DNA of 64,000 nucleotides from Planctomycetota bacterium (GTDB lineage: Bacteria > Planctomycetota > UBA8742 > UBA2392), in contig JAIOJA010000010.1 in assembly GCA_019912315.1 (NCBI GenBank), positions 1 through 64,000 on the forward strand, read 5' to 3'. The number at the start of each line of letters is the position of its first letter. Within the stretch, counting starts at the first letter, position 1. Positions 47,544 to 59,004 of the stretch are shown here, piece by piece. The notes beneath the pieces are model-generated. The model did no database searches. It was not told the DNA's origin and worked only from the letters and a program-made list of their open reading frames with translations. Position numbers and translations under genes: made by a program.

Positions 47544-50500
47544 CTAGCGCGATGCCACGTACTTCCTGCGCAGCGCGTAGCCTATCAGCGCCAGGACGCC
47601 GAGGAGTGCAAGCAGTGAAGTCTGCCCGTTGGACGAGCATCCACCGCCTCCGCCGCCTCCACCACCACCGCCGCCACCACCACCACTATCATTGTCGGTG
47701 ATGTTCATGGTGGCTGATGCCGGCGTGCCAACTCCGTAGCCGGTGCCTGGCATCACGGTAAGTATGACCGTTTCGGTCACCTCGCTCGCTGTATCGTCTA
47801 CGGGGGTGATCGTGACCGTAGCCGTGCCGCCGACGCCGATCGTGACGGTCGTAGTCGCAGAAGCACTGTAATCAAGCACGTCCGTGGCTGTGCCCGTCAA
47901 ACTAATGTTCACGGTGAGCGGAGCCAACGGCGCGGGCGTCGCTGTCAGAGTGAACGTGTTCGGCGTCATGCCTGCCTCGGCCGCGTCCCCGTTGGCAACG
48001 ACGCTGACGACAATCTGATCGTTGTCCGTGATCGTCACATCACCGAAGTCCGGCGTGCCCGGCGCGTACCCGACGCCGGTATCCAGTGTCAGCGTGGCGA
48101 CTTCCGCGGGCTCCACCAGCGAGTCATCAACGGGCGTAAGGATGATCGAAACGAGTGTCGTAGCCGCCGGGACCGTGATGGTGCCCGACGGGCCGGTGAA
48201 GTTGACCACGACGCCGGCAGTCGTGGAACTCAGGTCATAGTCCGTGCCCGCTGTCGTTGACGCCGCGCCGGACATGGTGAAGTTCAGCGTAAGCGCCGCC
48301 GCCGGAGCCGGAGACAGAGTCAGCAGGTATTCACCGGTCTGGTTGTTGGCCGGATCCTCAGCGGCGTTCGGGTCTGGGACAGACACGGCAATATTGACGT
48401 CGTTGTCGGCGATGGTGACGTCGTCACCGGCTGGCGTGCCAACAAGATAGTTGACGCCACTCTGCACGGTAAATGTCGCAGTTTCCTGCCCCTCGGGTGT
48501 GGGATCGTCCACCGGCGTCAGAACAACATCAATTGTCGGTGTGTTCGCGGGAGCGCTGATCGTGCCGGATGGCCCGACGTAGTTCACGACCACACCCGCC
48601 GTCGGCGAACTCAGGTTGTAGTCCACACCCGGCACCGTGTCGGCCGTGCCGCTCATCGTGAAGTTGAACGTAAGCGGCGTACCTACTGCCTGGCTAAGCG
48701 CCACCTGAAAGGTACCAGGGTCGGTACCTTGCTCCGCCGCCGCGTCGTCAGGCGCCGTTACCGTAAGCGTCGGCGTGTCGTTGTCGGTGATGAAGACATC
48801 GTTCGTCGGAGTCGCGCCTGGCGCATAGCCTGTGCCGGTGGACACGGTTAGGGAAGCGAGTTCCGCACCCTCGTTCAGGTTGTCATCAATCGGGGTCAAC
48901 ACCACGTTGAACTGCGTTTCACCAGCGGGGACGGTAACGGTGCCCGTCGGACCGGTGAAAACAACCGCCGAGCCTGTTGTCGTCGTGCTGAGGTCATAGT
49001 CCGTACTTGGCACATTCGACGCAGTCCCGCCCATTGTGAAGTTCACGGTAATCGGGACAGCGGAAGCAAACGTCAACGAGAGGTTGAACTGACCGATAGC
49101 CGGGCCGGTTTCCGACGCCGGTGTCACCGTCGTCAGCACGTCAACACCTGGATCACCGGCGTATTCGTCGGCGCCGGCATCAACTCCGCCGTGGGCTGGA
49201 CGTGTGTCGCCGTCAATGTCGACAATTTCGGTGCTGCCGGCCGCCAGGTTGAACGCTGATGAGCTGGCGTGTATGTGCATGTCAAAGGGCGCATTCACGG
49301 CTTCCACGAGCGCAGGGTCCTGCGTGGTGCTCGCGCCGTCGTACCCGAGGGCCTGCCAGAGCGCGAGTGTTGCCTGCGCCCGACTGATCGAGCCGTTGGG
49401 GGCGTGAAGCACGTTGCCGTCAGAGGCCAGGGGATTGTTGGTCGGGAAGCTGAACAGTGCGGCGCCACTTGTGGTGGTATCAAGAACATTGAAAGCGATG
49501 TTCTGGATGGAACCCGCACCACTCGTATGAATGCAGTTCGCGGCCGAATTCGCCGATGGCGGCAGCGAAAGTGTGTTGTGCTCAATGATTGTCCCGGTGC
49601 TCGGGTTCAGGAACGAAATCAGCCCCTGCATGTCCGCCGCGAGGACACCACTGGTCACCAGATAGCCGGACACCATGTTGTTGCGAATCTCGACGCCCGG
49701 CATCGCGACACCGTTCCCGAGGTAGCACAACGGGGCGCCGCCAACGGCCACGCCCGTAAACTCGTTGCCGACAAAATTGATCGGGCCGACGTTGGTCATG
49801 TCCGGCTCGCGCCATTGCAGGCTGGCCCAGTCTCCCAACCCAACCTCAAACCGGAAGCCCGTGAACGTGAGATGGCCGACATTTGTAAACGACATGAGCC
49901 CGATGCCACTTATCAGGCCCTGGTAATTGAACGTGCAGCCACCACCGCCGACGTTTCCAACCACCGGAACCTGAGCGCCGGTGCCCTGGAAGGTAATCGT
50001 ATTGACCGCTGATGTGCCGTAAACCGGTGTGTACGTCGGCAAAACCATTCCGTCGGAGCCCAACTCGTAGGTCGCGTCTGGCGTATACGGGGTGCCCGTG
50101 CCTTCGACGTTGAAAGTAACAGCGCCGGCGACTCCGAAGCTTTCGAGGTCATTGAACGCAGCCCCGAGGTCGGCGTAATCCGCAATGGCGATGTTGTTTA
50201 CCGTGTAGGTGCCGCTCAAACCCCGGCTCGACAGGACTGTCAGGTTGTACGGGTCCTCACCTACATCGTTGTTGGGAATGCTGATCGTGAACCCGATCGT
50301 TCCCAAGCCCGCGTTGGCGGTGAGCTGGATACTGAGGGTTGCGCTCGATCCCCCGGTCAAAGCCGTGTTTGACGGGTCGGTGCCGGTGATTGCGACGCTG
50401 CAGCCGGTAAGGGCCGCCACGGAGATCGTGCCAAGATTGAGTGTCGTACCGGCTGCTAAACTCTCGATGGTCCAGTCAAGCGTCGTAACAGAAGACGGAT

Positions 50501-51302
50501 CAACGGGAAGAACTCGGTGGGTCGAGCCGGAGGCGACACTTGCACCGCTGGGTTGTTTGACGTTGATCTCCGGGTTTGCCTGCCCGAATTCGATACCCAT
50601 GTTGGCGTTGATCTCGCCGACGGTACGGGCGGTGCTCCAGACACGATACTCGTCCATGTCACCGGTAAACGACCCCCAGCCCGCTCCGAGAGTCGCTACT
50701 GTATCGTCGAACAGTGTCATGTTCGTCGCGGTGAGTACCAACGGCAAGGTGCCGGGAGGTCCTGCGAACAGAGTCAAAGCATCGCTTACGCCATCGATGT
50801 ACAGGGTGGGGTTCCCCGCATCGACTACCAGCGCGACGTGATGCCATTGACCGTCAGCCACGGAAACTGCGCCGTAGAGTTGCACGTACCCACCGGTGGA
50901 ATCACACAGCAAGCTGATCTCACCTGTGCCGAGCACGATGATATGGAATAGATTTCCGATGGTGGTTGCACCGGAACCGATCACACCACACGCGAGTGTC
51001 GTGCTGGTGCGCAACCAGAATTCGACAGTGATGGTTGCAGGACTCACAGCCGGGCTAAAACCCGTCGCCATCGTCACGTTCTGCGGAACGTTGACCGCAC
51101 CGCTGCCGATTTGGCCTGGCTGAAACCAGGTGGGCGCGACCGTGAAAGAACCGCTTGTGCCTGCCGTGCCGTCGTTGACCGCAGTCGTGCCGGAAGTTTC
51201 GTTAAACTTGTAGTGCAGCAAGGGTGTCTGAGCGAATGCATCCGCCGCGAACCCTCCGGTAACCAGCAGCAGTGCTGCAAGCCAGAATCCGTATCTCCTC
51301 AT
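47544..51302 (-). CDS. LamG surface protein with Calx-beta repeats and Gly/Cys C-terminal sorting tail, 1252 aa
   Basis: Signal peptide MRRYGFWLAALLLVTGGFAADAFAQ, then a LamG domain (about 27-225, LLHYKFNETSGTTAVND). A choice-of-anchor/beta-helix region spans about 360-720. Five Calx-beta-type repeats of about 100 residues follow, each with FTMSGTA-like, DYDLSSTT-like and LTPVDD-like segments (about 725-1190). The tail has about 15 glycines, CSSNG, a hydrophobic helix (LLALLGVLALIGYAL) and RRKYVASR. Calx-beta modules usually bind Ca2+ in adhesion proteins. It is a paralogue-like partner of the preceding protein; both lack enzymatic motifs. Confidence 0.9.
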   Translation of the reverse strand: MRRYGFWLAALLLVTGGFAADAFAQTPLLHYKFNETSGTTAVNDGTAGTSGSFTVAPTWFQPGQIGSGAVNVPQNVTMATGFSPAVSPATITVEFWLRTSTTLACGVIGSGATTIGNLFHIIVLGTGEISLLCDSTGGYVQLYGAVSVADGQWHHVALVVDAGNPTLYIDGVSDALTLFAGPPGTLPLVLTATNMTLFDDTVATLGAGWGSFTGDMDEYRVWSTARTVGEINANMGIEFGQANPEINVKQPSGASVASGSTHRVLPVDPSSVTTLDWTIESLAAGTTLNLGTISVAALTGCSVAITGTDPSNTALTGGSSATLSIQLTANAGLGTIGFTISIPNNDVGEDPYNLTVLSSRGLSGTYTVNNIAIADYADLGAAFNDLESFGVAGAVTFNVEGTGTPYTPDATYELGSDGMVLPTYTPVYGTSAVNTITFQGTGAQVPVVGNVGGGGCTFNYQGLISGIGLMSFTNVGHLTFTGFRFEVGLGDWASLQWREPDMTNVGPINFVGNEFTGVAVGGAPLCYLGNGVAMPGVEIRNNMVSGYLVTSGVLAADMQGLISFLNPSTGTIIEHNTLSLPPSANSAANCIHTSGAGSIQNIAFNVLDTTTSGAALFSFPTNNPLASDGNVLHAPNGSISRAQATLALWQALGYDGASTTQDPALVEAVNAPFDMHIHASSSAFNLAAGSTEIVDIDGDTRPAHGGVDAGADEYAGDPGVDVLTTVTPASETGPAIGQFNLSLTFASAVPITVNFTMGGTASNVPSTDYDLSTTTTGSAVVFTGPTGTVTVPAGETQFNVVLTPIDDNLNEGAELASLTVSTGTGYAPGATPTNDVFITDNDTPTLTVTAPDDAAAEQGTDPGTFQVALSQAVGTPLTFNFTMSGTADTVPGVDYNLSSPTAGVVVNYVGPSGTISAPANTPTIDVVLTPVDDPTPEGQETATFTVQSGVNYLVGTPAGDDVTIADNDVNIAVSVPDPNAAEDPANNQTGEYLLTLSPAPAAALTLNFTMSGAASTTAGTDYDLSSTTAGVVVNFTGPSGTITVPAATTLVSIILTPVDDSLVEPAEVATLTLDTGVGYAPGTPDFGDVTITDNDQIVVSVVANGDAAEAGMTPNTFTLTATPAPLAPLTVNISLTGTATDVLDYSASATTTVTIGVGGTATVTITPVDDTASEVTETVILTVMPGTGYGVGTPASATMNITDNDSGGGGGGGGGGGGGGGCSSNGQTSLLALLGVLALIGYALRRKYVASR

Positions 51303-52353: not shown

Positions 52354-53184
52354 CTACTTCGACGCCTTGTCGACGATCTCTTTGTCGAAGTAATTCGTCC
52401 CCATGCCTGCATCCAGTACGACCTCCTGCGCGTTCATGCCGCTGCTGCGCGGGCTGATCATGAACGCCACAGCGTTCGCAACCTCCTGGGTGCTGACCGC
52501 ATGGTGCCGGATCGTCGCTTTTTCGGCGTACAGGTAGCTGTCCGCGTAGTTCGGAATGCCGGCGGACGCGCTGGTCTTCAGCAGGCTGGGACAGACCGCG
52601 TTGAAGCGCACCTTTCCTTCAAAGCTCTTGGCCAGAAAAACCACACTGCTGTGCAGCGCAGCCTTGATCGGCGCCATGTAGCCGTAGTTCTCTGCGGCCA
52701 TGCGCGTGGTGCTGATGCCGATCGTGACCACGCCCGCATTCTCCGCAAAGTGAGGCTTAAAGGCGTTGCTTATTGCGACAAGGCTGAAGGCACTGATGTT
52801 GACCGCCTGCAAAAAGTCTTCGCGCCGGGTTTCAACAAACGGCTTGAATCCATCGCTGTAGTTTGCATAGGCAATGCTGTGGACAAGCCCGTGGATCGGC
52901 CCGTGCTTCTCGCCTATGGCCTTGGCAGCGTTTTCGATTTCTTCCTGTGATTCGACATTGCAGACATACACGCCACTTGCGCCGCCATGCAGGCCGCGGT
53001 GCTTGTCCAACATCTCACCGACTTCAGTCCGGCGTTCCTCGTCACGCACAACGTGAAAGACACGGGCGCCTGCCTCTTCAAGGGTCAGCGCTGTGATCCA
53101 TGCGACGGACTTTTTGTTGGCCGCACCGAAGACGACGACGTTCTTGCTGCGAAGGTCAAGGAAGTCGGAGTTAACCAGCGCCAC
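52354..53184 (-). CDS. Enoyl-ACP reductase (FabI-like), last gene of the ole/FAS operon
   Basis: A 276-residue SDR of the FabI type, reducing the trans-2-enoyl-ACP double bond. NAD loop [10 protein letters not shown] (20-29), VHSIAYAN (101-108), and catalytic Tyr167/Lys174 in [12 protein letters not shown] with the FabI Y-x6-K spacing. Residue 157 is Ile, where E. coli FabI has a second Tyr (Tyr146). The substrate loop [14 protein letters not shown] replaces ISAGPIRTLAASGI, so specificity may differ from the housekeeping enzyme. GTG start, 9 bases after the upstream gene. It probably serves the dedicated pathway. Confidence 0.88.
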
Positions 53185-53193
53185 AGTGCACCT

Positions 53194-54285
53194 CTAGATT
53201 TCGACCACCGCCACGATGAATTTGACACGCAGGACATTCTTGCCCGCGACCGACACCTTACCGTTCATCACGAAGGCGTCGCCCATCTTTTCTTCCTGGG
53301 TCACTTCAATCAGCATCACATCTCCCGGATGAACCATACCGCGAAACTTGGCCTCCAGAATGCGGGTTAGGACGGGCTTGCGAGAGTCACGTAGCGCAGG
53401 CGCCTCGCCTGCACCGGCTGTGGGCGCCCCGCCCACAGCACCACCAACCCACTTCCATTCGGCAATACCCGCTGCCGAGGGGTTCTCCAGCGTGTATCGA
53501 ACTCGACGTTCAAACTCGGCCTGATTTCGCACAATCCGATCGAACGACTCGCGTTGCCAGAACTCACCAGTCAGGCCGAGCAACTTGTTGCACGCTTTCG
53601 CGGTGTATGATTTCCACGAATGCAGGACATCAGAAAGCGAATGGCCTGATCGGGGCCTGAAAACAGTGTGAACGTGATTCGGCATCACGCACCAGGCATA
53701 CAAGTCATAACGCTCGTCATCAAACCTGGTCAGCGTCTCGGCAACAATCCGAGCACACTCATCGTTCTTGAAGTGACACGCACCGGAGCCCGCATTCAGC
53801 AATTCGTCAACGCGCTCTGAGTAGAGATGATCAAGCCTCTCTCTTTCTTCGTCCGAGAGCGGCCGCCCGACTTGCTCCGCTGTTGCAACTATGTCCCAGC
53901 GTTCAAGCTCAATCTGTCTTCTGGCGGATTCCGGGATTGAATCTGCCAAGCGAAACGTGACGAGGTAGGTCGCTCCCTCTTTCTCCCAATGCGGCAGGTA
54001 GCCTCGATTGCGCTTCGTGATTGTCGCGGGCGAGGCGCCCGCGACTCTTGCAGGCGGGGCGCCTGCGCTACTCAGCAGCATCGCGCCCGATTGAAAACAG
54101 GCTTCGCACAGCAGTACTCCGGGCATAAGTGGTGAGCCGGGGTAGTGTCCCTCGAATTGCGGCTCATCCGCGCGGACGGTGCGCTCGGTAACGATTCTTC
54201 CTTCGCCCTGCTCGACGATCCTGTCCACGAACAGGAACGGTTCGCGGTGCGGTATAATGGCTTTGACTTTGTCGAGATTGTTCAT
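53194..54285 (-). CDS. fabZ: FabZ-type 3-hydroxyacyl-ACP dehydratase interrupted in frame by a RAYT transposase domain, 363 aa
   Basis: Residues 1-73 and about 301-363 are the two halves of one hotdog domain. The first half has FEGHYPGSPLMPGVLLCEA with catalytic His47 and Glu61. The second half is RKPVLTRILEAKFRGMVHPGD, then VAGKNVLRVKFIVAVV. Between them lie about 228 residues of a REP-associated tyrosine transposase: YLPHWEKEGATYLVTFRL, CVMPNHVHTVFRP (HUH motif, His204 and His206), SWKSYTAKACNKLLG, FWQRESFDRIVRNQAEFERR and Tyr264 in RYTLENPSAAG. The frame is intact throughout. An uninterrupted FabZ would be about 135 residues. It lies 6 bases after the upstream gene. Whether the chimera folds is unknown. 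Confidence 0.9.
   Translation of the reverse strand: MNNLDKVKAIIPHREPFLFVDRIVEQGEGRIVTERTVRADEPQFEGHYPGSPLMPGVLLCEACFQSGAMLLSSAGAPPARVAGASPATITKRNRGYLPHWEKEGATYLVTFRLADSIPESARRQIELERWDIVATAEQVGRPLSDEERERLDHLYSERVDELLNAGSGACHFKNDECARIVAETLTRFDDERYDLYAWCVMPNHVHTVFRPRSGHSLSDVLHSWKSYTAKACNKLLGLTGEFWQRESFDRIVRNQAEFERRVRYTLENPSAAGIAEWKWVGGAVGGAPTAGAGEAPALRDSRKPVLTRILEAKFRGMVHPGDVMLIEVTQEEKMGDAFVMNGKVSVAGKNVLRVKFIVAVVEI
53391..54073 (-). mobile_element. RAYT (TnpA-REP) element flanked by REP palindrome pairs, inside fabZ
   Basis: A 683-base insert bounded by 22-base inverted ends (53391-53412 and 54052-54073) that differ at one position and start GTAGCGCAGGCGCC. Each end holds two palindromes: 53396-53412 and 53418-53438 on one side, 54027-54045 and 54052-54068 on the other (GCAGGCG..CGCCTGC and GGGCGCC-type stems). 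This is the layout of a BIME around a RAYT gene. The HUH and Tyr residues look intact. No clear target-site duplication was found. Confidence 0.88.
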
Positions 54286-54291
54286 GCGCTG

Positions 54292-55812
54292 TTACAGGTG
54301 GGACACCTTCGCCTCGTGCAGATATTCCGCCATTTTGTTGGCGGTGATCACGCCGTAGTTCACGGTGCCGAGCCAGCCGGACATGATGATGCCTACACTG
54401 CCCGCGTGGTACATGCCGGGCAGGTGCTCGCTGAGCTTCATGGACACGTCAAGCCCCTCGAACTTCGTACCGAACGAAGCACCCTCTGACTGCTGTGTAT
54501 AGAAGTTGAAGGTGCGCGGTGTGCTGGCCTCCAGGTGGTCGATCTTCTCACGTACGTTAGGAATGTATTGTTCCAGGTGCGTGACCGTGCGCTCGATCAG
54601 CGCGTTCTTCTCGTGCTCGTATTCTTCGTCGCTGAGCCCCTGCCAGTCCTGCCAGCGCGCGTTATTGCTGCTGACAATGGTGAACCCGGCGTTCTTCAAG
54701 TGCGGTCGCGTCTTCGGATAATAGAAGCTGAAGGTGCGCGACTTCGTGCGCAGCTCACACAGTTCCTCTGACGTGAAGTGATCGGCCGTGCTGCAGAACA
54801 GCAGGTCCGTAATGAACGGGATTTCTTCACCCTGCCTGATCCCGATGTACACCTGGCAGGATGATCCGCTCAGGCGCACGTCTTTTGCCTGCTGGATGAA
54901 GTCCCCGGATAGATGATCCTCTCCCACCAGCTTCAGCACCGTGCCCTTGATGTTGGCGTTGCTGAGTACGGTCTTCGCCTTGATGTCGCGCCCGTTCACG
55001 CGCACACCCGCCACGCGGCCTTTGTTCACCAGCACGCGCTCGACCTGCGCGCCGCTGAACATGTCCACGCCGTTGGACTGCAATATTTTGCGCATCTTCA
55101 TGATCAGGGTGTCGGTGCCGCCGCTGAAGGTAAAGACGCCTTTGCTCATGAAGTTTGAAAAGACGATGCCGTAGGTGATGGCCGGCTCGTCGAGCGTGCT
55201 GCCGTTGGCGTAGGTGATCGGCTCCATGAACGCGCGGTGCACGTCGTTGCGGCCGGGGAAGAACTGCTCGAACATCTGGCGGATGGTTTGGCCGTCGTCG
55301 TTGTAGTACTCCATCTTGCGCAGGTGGTCGTAGAAGCGTTCCACGTGCGCGCGTTCGAGGTTGAAGGCCTGCACAACCTTGTTGGTGTAATCTTCGCGCG
55401 TGAACTGGGTTTCGAAGCTGAACTGCGGGTTGTCGAACTTGATGCTTTCGAGCGGCACGATGCTGTCTGCAATCTCCTGCGACCAGTAACGGCGCATGGA
55501 CTTCTTCATGCCGACGGGGAAGCCGTGCAGCGAGATGTCAAAGATGTGTCCGCCGGGACGCCGGAACCATGTCGCCATGCCGCCGTAGTTGTAGTGCTGC
55601 TCAAGCAGGCAGACGCGGTAACCCTGCGTGGCCATCACGTTCGCGCCGGTTAGACCCGCGAGCCCCGCGCCGATCACGATAACGTCGTATTCGCCTTTGG
55701 CTTTCTCTACGGGGTTGTGCTTCTTCTCAGCACGCCCTCCGGACGAGCCCTGCAGGACCCGCTTGCCCTCGGCCTTCAGGTTGAATCCGGATGTCTGTTG
55801 CTCAGTCGTCAT
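54292..55812 (-). CDS. CrtI-like FAD-dependent oxidoreductase 1 (phytoene desaturase/retinol saturase family)
   Basis: A 506-residue flavoprotein. Start ATG 55810-55812 ([11 protein letters not shown]); the frame upstream is only repeat sequence. A short N-terminal extension rich in basic residues precedes the FAD loop [22 protein letters not shown] and [13 protein letters not shown] mid-domain insertion carries [20 protein letters not shown], and the FAD C-terminal motif is [17 protein letters not shown]. Family members isomerise, saturate or desaturate polyenes and lipids; none can be distinguished here. Its position beside ACP, FabZ and ketosynthase suggests it acts on ACP-bound or free acyl chains. 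Confidence 0.9.
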
Positions 55813-55824
55813 TGCGTTGCCTTT

Positions 55825-55874
55825 GTAGCGTCGAGGCGTGCCTCGCCCGCGGGCGACCCAAGGGTCGCCCCTAC
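55825..55874. repeat. REP pair, family A, between the two crtI-like genes
   Basis: Two hairpins: CGAGGCGTGCCTCG (55832-55845) and GGGCGACCCAAGGGTCGCCC (55851-55870), closed by CCTAC. The element starts GTAG and ends CTAC. On the minus strand its GTAG provides the TAG stop of the upstream crtI-like gene (55871-55873). Confidence 0.8.
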
Positions 55875-57376
55875 GCCTCCACTGCTGCGTTGTCACGTTG
55901 CAGCACCCAGCGGTTTGCCATGCTGATGCCGCTTAGCATGGCGCCGATGATGCCTAAAAAACCCTGGTCAGTGCCGATGATGTACAGGCCTTCGAGGCCG
56001 CTTTCGCCGGTGCGCTTCTTGATGGGGCTGCCGTAGACGGCGCCGCCTTCGTGACCGGTGTAGTGCCGGATTGTGCGCGGCGTGAACATGTCCGTAAGCG
56101 TCGTGTGTGCCCGAAATTCGGGGATGTGCGCCAGCACGTCGTCGCATGAGCGCGTGTACCAGTGCTGCTTGGCGGCCTGATAGGGTGATGTGGGCGCCTC
56201 GCTGCGCGACTGCGGGCAGGGTGCCCGCATCACTTCTGCGGGCTGGAAGCCCACTCCACGATCCACTGCATTCCACTTGTCGAAGTTGGCGATGTTGGTG
56301 ATGCGTATCAGGTGGTCGTTCGGTTGCTCCGGCAGATTGAAATTGCCGGGCATACATATCACGCCGCTGGATGTGTCGCACAGGTCTGTGGGCTGGGCGT
56401 AGTTGAACCGCTCGTTGTTGTTGAAGAAGATGATCGTCTCTTCGATGCCCAGCTCGCGCGCCGGCTTGTTCAGCACGTTGATGGTTTCGGTGAACGAGAG
56501 TTTGCCTGTAGGGGCGATGCTTGCATCGCCTGAGAGGCTACTGTGGCTTGCGGGCGACGCGAGCGTCGCCCCTACCATCTTCGTAGTCTCTACCAACCCT
56601 GCTGACGACAGCACCGTATCGGCCGTGAGGGTTTCACCATTGTCCAACTCGACGCCGACGCTGCGGTTGCCTTCGGTGAGAATCTTTGCAACACCAGCCT
56701 TCAGGCGCAGTTCGCCGCCGGCTTTGCGATAGCGGTCGATCAGCAGTTTCAGGATGTGCCTGACACCGGCTTGCGGGCGGGCGAAGCCCTCGAAGAAAAT
56801 ACTCTTGAACATCACCACGAACTGGTCCCAGTCCATGTCGTTTTCGCGCGCCGAGCCGTAGTACATCAGCGGGCAGAAGATCATGTCAGCGAGTACTGGG
56901 TCGCTGATGTGGCTTTCCACGATCTCGCGGGCGTTGAGCGTTGGCGCGTTCAGGTCCAGCTCGTTGTAATCCCGAACGGCCTGGGTCAGTGCGTCGAAAC
57001 CGTCGGCCTGTGATGGGAAAGCACGGGCGACTTCGCTGCGCAGCAACTCAAAGTCGTTGCTGAACTTCAGCTTCTCGCCGGGCCAGCTCACTGCCGAATG
57101 CCCCTGCTCATGCAGGTCTAGCTCATCCCAGCGGATACGAAGTTGCTTCAGCAGGCGTGTCAGGGGCAAGCCCTTGGCTCCGCGCGGGGCGTAATTCGTC
57201 ATGGCATGCAGTCCAACGTCGAACTGGTGTCCCTGGTATTGGTAGAATGAGTTCAGCCCGCCCCACACGTAATGGCGCTCCAGCACGACAACTTTCTTGT
57301 CGAACATCGCCAGGCGTATGCCCGCGCCAAGCCCGGACATGCCTGCACCAATGATGATGGCATCGTAGTGGGTCAT
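55871..57376 (-). CDS. CrtI-like FAD-dependent oxidoreductase 2, with two in-frame palindromic inserts, 501 aa
   Basis: FAD loop [22 protein letters not shown] and [16 protein letters not shown] at the N-terminus, [18 protein letters not shown], and the C-terminal FAD motif [22 protein letters not shown]. It is the same family as the neighbouring CrtI-like protein but clearly divergent. Two low-complexity inserts have no counterpart in the family: residues about 268-290 ([19 protein letters not shown]) and about 373-396 ([20 protein letters not shown]). Both are encoded by REP palindromes. The TAG stop also comes from a REP element. No frameshift is visible, so the gene may be functional. Only 32 bases separate it from the ACP gene upstream. 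Confidence 0.9.
56190..56259. repeat. REP-like insert, family B, inside crtI-like gene 2
   Basis: Palindromes TGCGGGCAGGGTGCCCGCA (56211-56229) and TGCGGGCTGGAAGCCCACT (56237-56255), the latter followed by CCAC. The minus-strand reading is GTGGAGTGGGCTTCCAGCCC, a variant of the GTGGTGTGGAC-type repeats in oleB and oleC. It adds about 17-24 residues in frame. Confidence 0.75.
56508..56575. repeat. REP-like insert, family A, inside crtI-like gene 2
   Basis: A 68-base element with ends GTAGGGGCGATGC (56508-56520) and GCGTCGCCCCTAC (56563-56575), nearly exact inverted repeats, each end itself a hairpin (GGCGATGC/GCATCGCC and GGGCGACGC/GCGTCGCCC). It is read in a frame that avoids the TAG of GTAG, giving V-G-A-T-L-A-S-P. 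Confidence 0.85.
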
Positions 57377-57408
57377 GGTTTACCGTTGACGGTCGACCGT
57401 CAACCTCT

Positions 57409-57672
57409 TTAGCTCACCAGTTCCTTGCCGACCATTTTGTCGCGCAGGTACGCCACGCAACTGTCGAGGCTTGCGAGGTGTTCGTAATCCGTATCCGGCA
57501 CGTGCACGCCATAGCGCTTGCGCAACTCCATCACGATGTCGAGGAAATCCATCGAGTCGAGGTCGAGCTGGTCGCGCAGGCGCTCTGCGGCGCTGATGTT
57601 GCTGGTGTCTTCGTCGGGGTTGATGTCGTTGATGATGCCGATGATGGCCTGCTTGATCTGTTCGTCGTTCAT
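57409..57672 (-). CDS. Acyl carrier protein, 87 aa
   Basis: Start ATG 57670-57672 after AAGGAAG (MNDEQIKQAIIG); the open frame extends upstream without homology. Helix, then DLDSMDFLDIVMELRKRYG, with Ser40 as the phosphopantetheine site (DSM). The second half (YEHLASLDSCVAYLRDKM) completes the four-helix bundle. It holds the growing chain for the neighbouring ketosynthase, FabZ and FabI, and is probably dedicated to this pathway. Confidence 0.93.
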   Translation of the reverse strand: MNDEQIKQAIIGIINDINPDEDTSNISAAERLRDQLDLDSMDFLDIVMELRKRYGVHVPDTDYEHLASLDSCVAYLRDKMVGKELVS

Positions 57673-57723
57673 TGCTGCTTCCTTCCTTTGTTGTCCCTTG
57701 CGGGTTTGTTTTCGTTCCCGTTT

Positions 57724-57766
57724 CACGCGGCTGCTTCGCCGCGTGTCCCCGGCCTTTCGGCCGGGG
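57724..57766. repeat. Two tandem hairpins between ketosynthase and ACP genes
   Basis: CACGCGG..CCGCGTG (57724-57745) and CCCCGGCC-TTTC-GGCCGGGG (57747-57766) fill most of the gap. They resemble another REP pair, or an internal attenuator that would lower expression of the genes after the ketosynthase. They cannot be distinguished by sequence alone. Confidence 0.6.
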
Positions 57767-57768
57767 CT

Positions 57769-59004
57769 CTATTCGTACTTCTTGACTATCAGGGCTGAGT
57801 TGATGCCCAGCATTCCGAAGCTCATGTTCATGATGGTTTTGATGTTGCCGACCTGTTTGGGCTCGTTGGTCACCAGGCCGCGCACTGCGCATTCCGGGTC
57901 GAGTTCATCGACGTTGATGGTCGGGTGCACGATGCCGTCGTCGAAGCTAGGCAGGTTGCCGGCCAGCTCCAGTGCGCCGGCCGCACCCATGGCGTGCCCT
58001 ATGTAGCTCTTGGTGTTGTTGACGTGCACGCCGTCGAAGTCACCGAACACGGCGTTCACCGCAGCCGCTTCCATCTGATCGCCGCTGGGTGTACTGGTGG
58101 CGTGAGTGTTGACGATGTCGATGTTGCTCGGTTCCATGCCTGCGCGCTTGACTGCTGCCCTCATGCACTGGGTCTGGCGTTCGCTGTTCGGAAGCACGTA
58201 GTCGCTGGCGTCACTGTTCACATGCCAGCCCGCGATTTCTCCGTAGATCTTTGCGCCACGTGCGAGCGCGTCGTCGAGACGTTCCAGTGTGTAAAGGCAA
58301 CCGCCTTCCGCCACGACAATGCCGTTGCGGGCTTTGTCGAATGGGCGCGACGCCTTGGTCGGGTCCTCGTGATGGGCCAGCGCGCCCTGCTGCTTGAAAC
58401 CTGCGAAGATGCCGAAGGTGTGGATGCTTTCGCTGACTCCCCCACCGAACGCAAGGTCCACTTCGCCAAGCTGCAGCATCTGGGTTGCGTGGATCACGCC
58501 CATGTTGCCGGCCGCGCAGGCTGCACCGATGGCATAGGCCGGCCCGGTGATCTTGAGGCTAAGCGTGACTTCGCCGGCGGGGTTGTTTGCGACTGTGCGC
58601 GGGTTGTGGTGGTGGGTCCAGAAGTCGAGGTTGTAGCCCTGCTTGCTGACCTCGTAGATTTCTGTTTCTGTCTCGACGTTGCCGTGTTCGGTAGTTCCCA
58701 CGTAAACGCCTACTCTTGACTTGTCAACTTTGTTGAAATCAAGACCTGCGCTCGCGATGGCCTCGTGGGCGCAATAGATGCTGATACTGCCGGCCCGTGT
58801 GCCGCGCCGTAAATCCTTGCGTTTCTGATAGCGGGTGGCTTCAAAGTCGCATACGCCGGCCAGTGTCTTGCCGAAGTAGCGAATCTCGTACGGCCGCACG
58901 CCGGACTTGCCCTCAAGCAGCGCTTGCCGGTACTCGGGCAGGCTGTTGCCATTCGGCGAGGTCAGTCCAACACCGGTGATCACGACGCGTGGAAGGCTAG
59001 ACAT
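57769..59004 (-). CDS. Beta-ketoacyl-ACP synthase (FabF/KAS II-like)
   Basis: A 411-residue condensing enzyme with the full triad: Cys163 in GAACAAGNMG, His301 in NTHATSTPSGD, His337 in TKSYIGHAMGAAG. PRVVITGVGLTSPNG opens it, and NMSFGMLGINSALI closes it in place of the family's NSFGFGGTNA-type motif. It would elongate acyl-ACP with malonyl-ACP by decarboxylative condensation. No chain-length-factor partner is visible, so it acts alone. The start overlaps the GbsR stop by 8 bases. Confidence 0.93.
   Translation of the reverse strand: MSSLPRVVITGVGLTSPNGNSLPEYRQALLEGKSGVRPYEIRYFGKTLAGVCDFEATRYQKRKDLRRGTRAGSISIYCAHEAIASAGLDFNKVDKSRVGVYVGTTEHGNVETETEIYEVSKQGYNLDFWTHHHNPRTVANNPAGEVTLSLKITGPAYAIGAACAAGNMGVIHATQMLQLGEVDLAFGGGVSESIHTFGIFAGFKQQGALAHHEDPTKASRPFDKARNGIVVAEGGCLYTLERLDDALARGAKIYGEIAGWHVNSDASDYVLPNSERQTQCMRAAVKRAGMEPSNIDIVNTHATSTPSGDQMEAAAVNAVFGDFDGVHVNNTKSYIGHAMGAAGALELAGNLPSFDDGIVHPTINVDELDPECAVRGLVTNEPKQVGNIKTIMNMSFGMLGINSALIVKKYE

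Follow-up and report, generated by a model that had tools for sequence, protein, structure and literature searches.

A complete gene for a REP-associated transposase (RAYT) is embedded in frame within fabZ in the planctomycete DNA analyzed here, a 64,000-nt contig stretch referred to below as the window. The chimeric open reading frame (53194-54285, minus strand) has 363 codons and the order FabZ(N)-REP-RAYT-REP-FabZ(C), and orthologous chimeras exist. It is likely that a REP-bounded RAYT gene (REPtron) occupies a surface loop of FabZ as an in-frame guest and is exchanged there through its REP ends.

The FabZ-RAYT chimera

The frame has no stop codon along its entire length, and the insert introduces neither a stop nor a frameshift across fabZ, which agrees with the original prediction of a RAYT lying in frame inside FabZ. 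The N-terminal FabZ part (residues 1-71; 54072-54285, minus strand) carries the catalytic residues His47 and Glu61 together with the central hotdog helix, and the C-terminal part (residues 300-363; 53194-53390, minus strand) provides the remaining hotdog strands. Between them lies a cassette of 681 nt (53391-54071, minus strand; 227 codons, one frame open), which runs from a GTAG end at 54071 to a CTAC end at 53391. The cassette opens inside codon 72 and closes inside codon 299, and its length is a multiple of three. The original prediction described the arrangement correctly, except that its junction residue (73) and insert length (683 bases) deviate slightly, by one or two bases. The residues spanning the two FabZ/insert junctions are MLLSSAGAPPAR... 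and ...APALRDSRKPVLTR.

Over 22 nt, the termini of the cassette are inverted copies of each other apart from one mismatch. Two hairpins lie on either side, as had been proposed. On the N side, these are an outer GTAG-tagged REP hairpin (54050-54071, minus strand; GTAGCGCAGGCGCCCCGCCTGC) and an inner REP hairpin (54023-54045, no strand assigned; GTCGCGGGCGCCTCGCCCGCGAC). On the C side, an inner REP hairpin (53417-53439, no strand assigned; GCTGTGGGCGCCCCGCCCACAGC) is followed by an outer GTAG-tagged hairpin (53391-53412, plus strand), which is the inverted copy of its N-side counterpart with the one mismatch. Single-strand folding of the two hairpin sides gave z-scores of -5.4 and -5.0. The RAYT domain itself (53446-54015, minus strand) has the HUH motif (NHVH at residues 203-206, with His204 and His206) and the single catalytic tyrosine (Tyr264) of a Y1 transposase domain.

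Profile searches are in line with this anatomy. In Pfam, the chimera matches FabA at residues 11-76 (74 bits) and Y1_Tnp (PF01797) at residues 189-247 (31 bits, above the cut-off). In NCBIfam, two stretches of it match FabZ (97 bits), and the best RAYT-type match is REP_Tyr_transpos (NF047646) at residues 171-276 (69.5 bits, under the cut-off of 80). In family terms, the guest is RAYT-like because this equivalog threshold is missed, and its motifs, REP flanks, and fold agree with a RAYT. Read in all six frames, the insert is open in just one, namely the one that is used, and the other five have 4-12 stops; none of 2000 shuffled insert sequences was open. Having one open frame of six implies that the cassette entered in a single orientation and a single frame. 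No second copy of the insert was found in the window's genome. The genome also has no second FabZ of the chimera's type, such as the insert-free allele that had been raised as an objection, and contains only a canonical FabZ paralogue with 47% identity.

Stand-alone relatives of the guest RAYT mostly have an ATG or GTG 10-19 codons ahead of the LPH motif. The chimera in the window has no ATG, GTG, or TTG from the junction to past this motif, and the first such codon is a TTG 16 codons after it. Without a start codon of its own, the RAYT, if made at all, would be made as a FabZ-RAYT-FabZ protein. The structure of this protein was predicted with AlphaFold from a 45-row alignment. Both FabZ halves and the RAYT have pLDDT values of mostly 90-98, and the two REP-encoded linkers are below 50. 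The pTM of 0.62 fits two domains that are free to take any orientation to each other. In the model, the hotdog closes with the guest in place, and the RAYT is predicted to fold apart on flexible REP-encoded linkers. The guest would occupy a surface loop that joins the central helix to the following strand of the hotdog. Foldseek aligned the whole hotdog across the insert to amxFabZ of anammox bacteria (8ayc; TMt 0.94, rmsd 1.4). It also matched the RAYT part to structure 4er8. The amxFabZ structures (8ayc, 7qv0) have the same fold as the FabZ part of the chimera but lack the insert. A model of an AlaRS-RAYT segment behaves similarly but more weakly (mean pLDDT 77).

These results also bear on the alternative that the insert is eliminated either ahead of translation or afterwards, in the manner of an intein, intron, or IStron, so that the FabZ produced lacks it. 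Self-removing elements do show such repeated occupation of genes that are conserved and in part essential. However, neither Pfam nor NCBIfam finds an intein match or a Hint splicing domain with terminal splice residues in the chimera, the predicted hotdog is closed despite the guest, and linker lengths vary in a way unlike splice-constrained junctions. Removal is therefore considered very unlikely.

The fabZ gene lies in a row of consecutive genes (52354-59004, minus strand) for a FabI-like SDR, FabZ, two CrtI-like desaturases, an ACP, and FabF. This row resembles the anammox ladderane candidate cluster kuste3603-3608, in which FabF, ACP, and CrtI-like genes likewise occur (PMC4790861), and amxFabZ is among the best Foldseek matches. 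The CrtI-like desaturase adjoining fabZ (55871-57376, minus strand) has its own in-frame REP-encoded loop (24 protein letters), the repeats of which vary among seven species; the loop is missing in G003 and G012. Elsewhere in the window (47544-51302, minus strand), a 1252 aa protein has repeated modules, a glycine run near its end, and a C-terminus with a hydrophobic tail and a basic end that resembles a sorting signal.

Distribution, selection, and exchange of the guest at fabZ

The search for fabZ chimeras covered 60 relatives, and the site was compared in 14 family members. The chimera is present in 10 of these 14, namely the window genome, G001-G006, G008, G009, and G011. All of these are Planctomycetota MAGs from separate projects, and one is a 6-contig assembly with the site inside a 2.45 Mb contig. 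Although every source is a MAG, which could raise the suspicion of an assembly or binning artefact, the same junction in ten independently published MAGs, including the 2.45 Mb contig, rules out an assembly artefact and leaves this explanation with a negligible probability. The doubt about an assembly join that accompanied the original prediction is thereby answered.

Nine of the ten chimeras are open throughout, and the tenth (G005) is interrupted by a scaffold gap, a stretch of N, within the linker on the C side. In a nine-row alignment of nine species, His47 and Glu61 of FabZ and His204, His206, and Tyr264 of the RAYT are invariant. The distance between the flanking FabZ motifs ranges from 693 to 912 nt among the chimeras and is in frame every time, and the copy number of the REPs that encode the linkers beside the RAYT varies by whole codons; for example, G009 has six DAGQRPAL units and G008 has five xDVGVPPA units. 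In G004 (L059), the C-side linker repeats the FabZ target sequence 'SGAMLLAGAG', which resembles an insertion-site duplication.

The empty site that had been sought in relatives does exist. Short loops of 13-29 residues take the place of the insert in G007, G012, G013, and G015, and the G012 loop contains a weakly significant REP-like hairpin (z -2.0). Within the clade, 10 of the 11 members are occupied. The reading of the insert as a tolerated domain guest, in a domain-in-domain chimera, is upheld by these comparisons. The suggestion of a very recent event is not, given that the occupied site is common to ten species of several genera and that synonymous divergence in the insert is saturated.

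Differences between species at codon positions 1, 2, and 3 of the RAYT are about 0.22, 0.16, and 0.57. The dN of the RAYT is 0.18-0.30, with dS above 2 or saturated (YN00; saturation defeated most estimates). Most FabZ pairs have a dN of 0.05-0.09, the comparison with G008 gives 0.175, and dS is near 1. Because dN is low relative to dS and the third-position excess is strong, both parts are under purifying selection, and the decay of both parts that had been named as a possible counter-sign is absent.

One rival explanation holds that the insert is a neutral relic, i.e., a dead RAYT that is tolerated in the loop and remains open only since FabZ needs the frame. Host selection alone would indeed give openness, and few other REPs are left in the genome. 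Maintenance of the frame accounts for the openness, but not for the kept RAYT catalytic site, since a frame constraint alone spares no such site. In nine species, the HUH motif, the tyrosine, and numerous further RAYT positions do not vary, and the strong third-position excess and the exchange of the guest likewise argue against a relic, which we regard as quite unlikely.

The phylogenetic evidence indicates that the guest and the host have different histories. The fabZ-embedded RAYTs fall into two types that are split at 99.9/100 support and cut across the host tree. The RAYT data reject the operon topology (delta lnL 145, AU p=6e-5), and the reverse test rejects too. The sister species G001 and G002 provide the clearest case. 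Their fabI, crt, and fabZ genes differ at 16-18% of four-fold sites and their RAYTs at 49%, and despite the close FabZ sequences, the two inserts belong to different RAYT lineages. Along fabZ, identity stands at about 93-97% as far as the first REP, falls to about 65% in the insert, and returns to about 93-97% past the last REP. Since the drop starts and ends at REPs, the exchanged unit is the REP-RAYT-REP cassette. A single insertion followed by vertical descent of the guest is rejected by both the AU test and this species pair.

In wider RAYT trees, the fabZ type of G002, G003, G005, and G008 is grouped (support 98/86 and 93/85). This points to the guest being exchanged within the fabZ locus and not to hopping at random. 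The test of fabZ-guest monophyly in the wider tree is moderate (AU p 0.031) and counts against the preferred explanation. The mobility of the guest is inferred from phylogeny, and the same swaps could also have been produced by ordinary homologous recombination or by loss from formerly tandem guests.

Related RAYTs in other host genes

The original prediction held for fabZ but missed both these guest swaps between lineages and the RAYTs of the same family that reside in AlaRS, PurH, and other proteins. An alaS::RAYT arrangement, in the gene for the essential enzyme alanyl-tRNA synthetase (AlaRS), occurs in four species at one site, always between the VRVL(T/S)MG and (F)S.ELCGGTHV motifs. Those of G007 and G009, each with one alaS copy, are clean, and those of G001 and G002 have frame breaks. 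The G002 gene (L047) has one break, which is upstream of the insert and outside it, and the G001 gene (L226), from a long-read type assembly, has several, two of which are inside or near the insert. These breaks may be either sequencing errors or decay. The window's own alaS has no RAYT insert.

Further in-frame hosts of related RAYTs are PurH (G018), an FAD-monooxygenase/FMN-oxidoreductase (G015), a DinG-like helicase (G153), and DNA methyltransferases in G051, G019, G381 (three), G178, and G086. Two methyltransferases that are 81% identical over a shared N-terminal stretch have REP-encoded residues in one and a RAYT in the other at two positions (alignment by eye). As a separate observation, restriction-modification/DNA methyltransferase genes of Planctomycetota are frequent hosts of RAYTs or REPs (L175, L177, L178, L188, L189, L052, L053, and L183). 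Across the window's family (16 genomes), roughly 15 RAYTs of the guest's family are embedded and roughly 16 stand alone. Long frames were not taken as evidence by themselves: several (for example, L182, L186, L192, and L194) turned out to be spurious and GC-rich, lacked host homology, and were disregarded, and the apparent terminal fusions RAYT-MoeA (L184), RAYT-TPR (L185), and MmeI-RAYT (L183) were not regarded as embedded. A candidate from Verrucomicrobiota (L074) proved to be stand-alone.

This host range is also relevant to co-option, in which the RAYT would be a working part of FabZ (e.g., in oligomerisation or nucleic-acid tethering) and the chimera would be kept for a joint function. 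The occupation of 10 of the 11 clade members and the conserved RAYT catalytic residues speak for such a role. On the other hand, the same RAYT family is found in the unrelated hosts AlaRS, PurH, and methyltransferases, the guest has been replaced by another RAYT lineage, G012 lacks it, and the linkers are predicted to be disordered and are freely variable. Co-option for a FabZ-related role, which the original prediction had entertained, has gained no positive support and is judged improbable.

Mechanism, relation to known systems, and implications

Under the preferred explanation of an exchangeable in-frame guest, the fabZ loop may be a REP-marked landing pad for RAYT cassettes, which would enter or be swapped by RAYT cleavage at REPs and/or REP-REP recombination in a homing-like manner. 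The host loop would be permissive, and the guest would be shielded by the host reading frame, because a stop or frameshift in the guest kills the host gene. Replacement would then occur now and then through the REP ends, and the same arrangement appears to recur in alaS, purH, and other genes. More tentatively, and with somewhat less than even chances, these RAYTs may be homing-like mobile genes without splicing, whose cassettes pass from species to species at fixed loops that REPs mark in conserved or essential proteins. Their products would arise only within the host protein, the host's need for which would shield the genes from loss, and the RAYT would still be active when it forms a domain of FabZ or AlaRS.

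The cassette resembles known REPtrons and RAYT (TnpAREP) genes in having an HUH-Tyr transposase with GTAG-tagged inverted REP hairpins on both sides (PMC3733652, PMC6006769, PMC8266576). The REPtrons described so far stand as genes of their own, mostly in single copy, and are considered domesticated, with no evidence of their own movement (PMC3733652, PMC6006769, PMC8266576); RAYTs have likewise been found mostly as single copies without such evidence (PMC8266576). In contrast, the RAYT here is a domain in the frame of a host gene and appears to be exchanged at that site. Earlier work has described REPs read in frame within genes, repair genes among them, as well as Rickettsia palindromic elements (PMC3733652, PMC10969869), and also REPs in frame inside tnpAREP genes (PMC6006769). 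Like the chimera insert, intragenic REPs and Rickettsia elements place palindromes in frame in unrelated genes at loops or linkers (PMC3733652, PMC10969869). However, they add roughly 20-50 residues and contain no gene, whereas the insert holds an entire gene, for a transposase of about 190 residues. With inteins and homing endonucleases, the cassette shares a guest ORF at a fixed site of a conserved gene, protection by the host frame, and apparent exchange between species. Unlike inteins, it has no detectable self-splicing domain and ends in DNA hairpins, and the guest is predicted to be kept in the mature protein.

A search of the open-licence literature yielded no account of complete RAYT genes that are maintained in frame within host genes and swapped at such sites. 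RAYTs and in-frame REPs were already known; what is apparently new is that a whole RAYT gene is embedded and that it is exchanged at fixed positions in its hosts. Such proteins may have been discarded by annotation surveys; one RAYT survey dropped unexpectedly long proteins as fusions or annotation errors (PMC6006769). With RAYTs in frame in essential genes and swapped between close species, their mobility and boundaries become directly testable, and REP-marked loops represent natural permissive sites for whole-domain insertion. Furthermore, these findings suggest a possible route by which a selfish gene could persist without splicing, namely in a loop of an indispensable protein.
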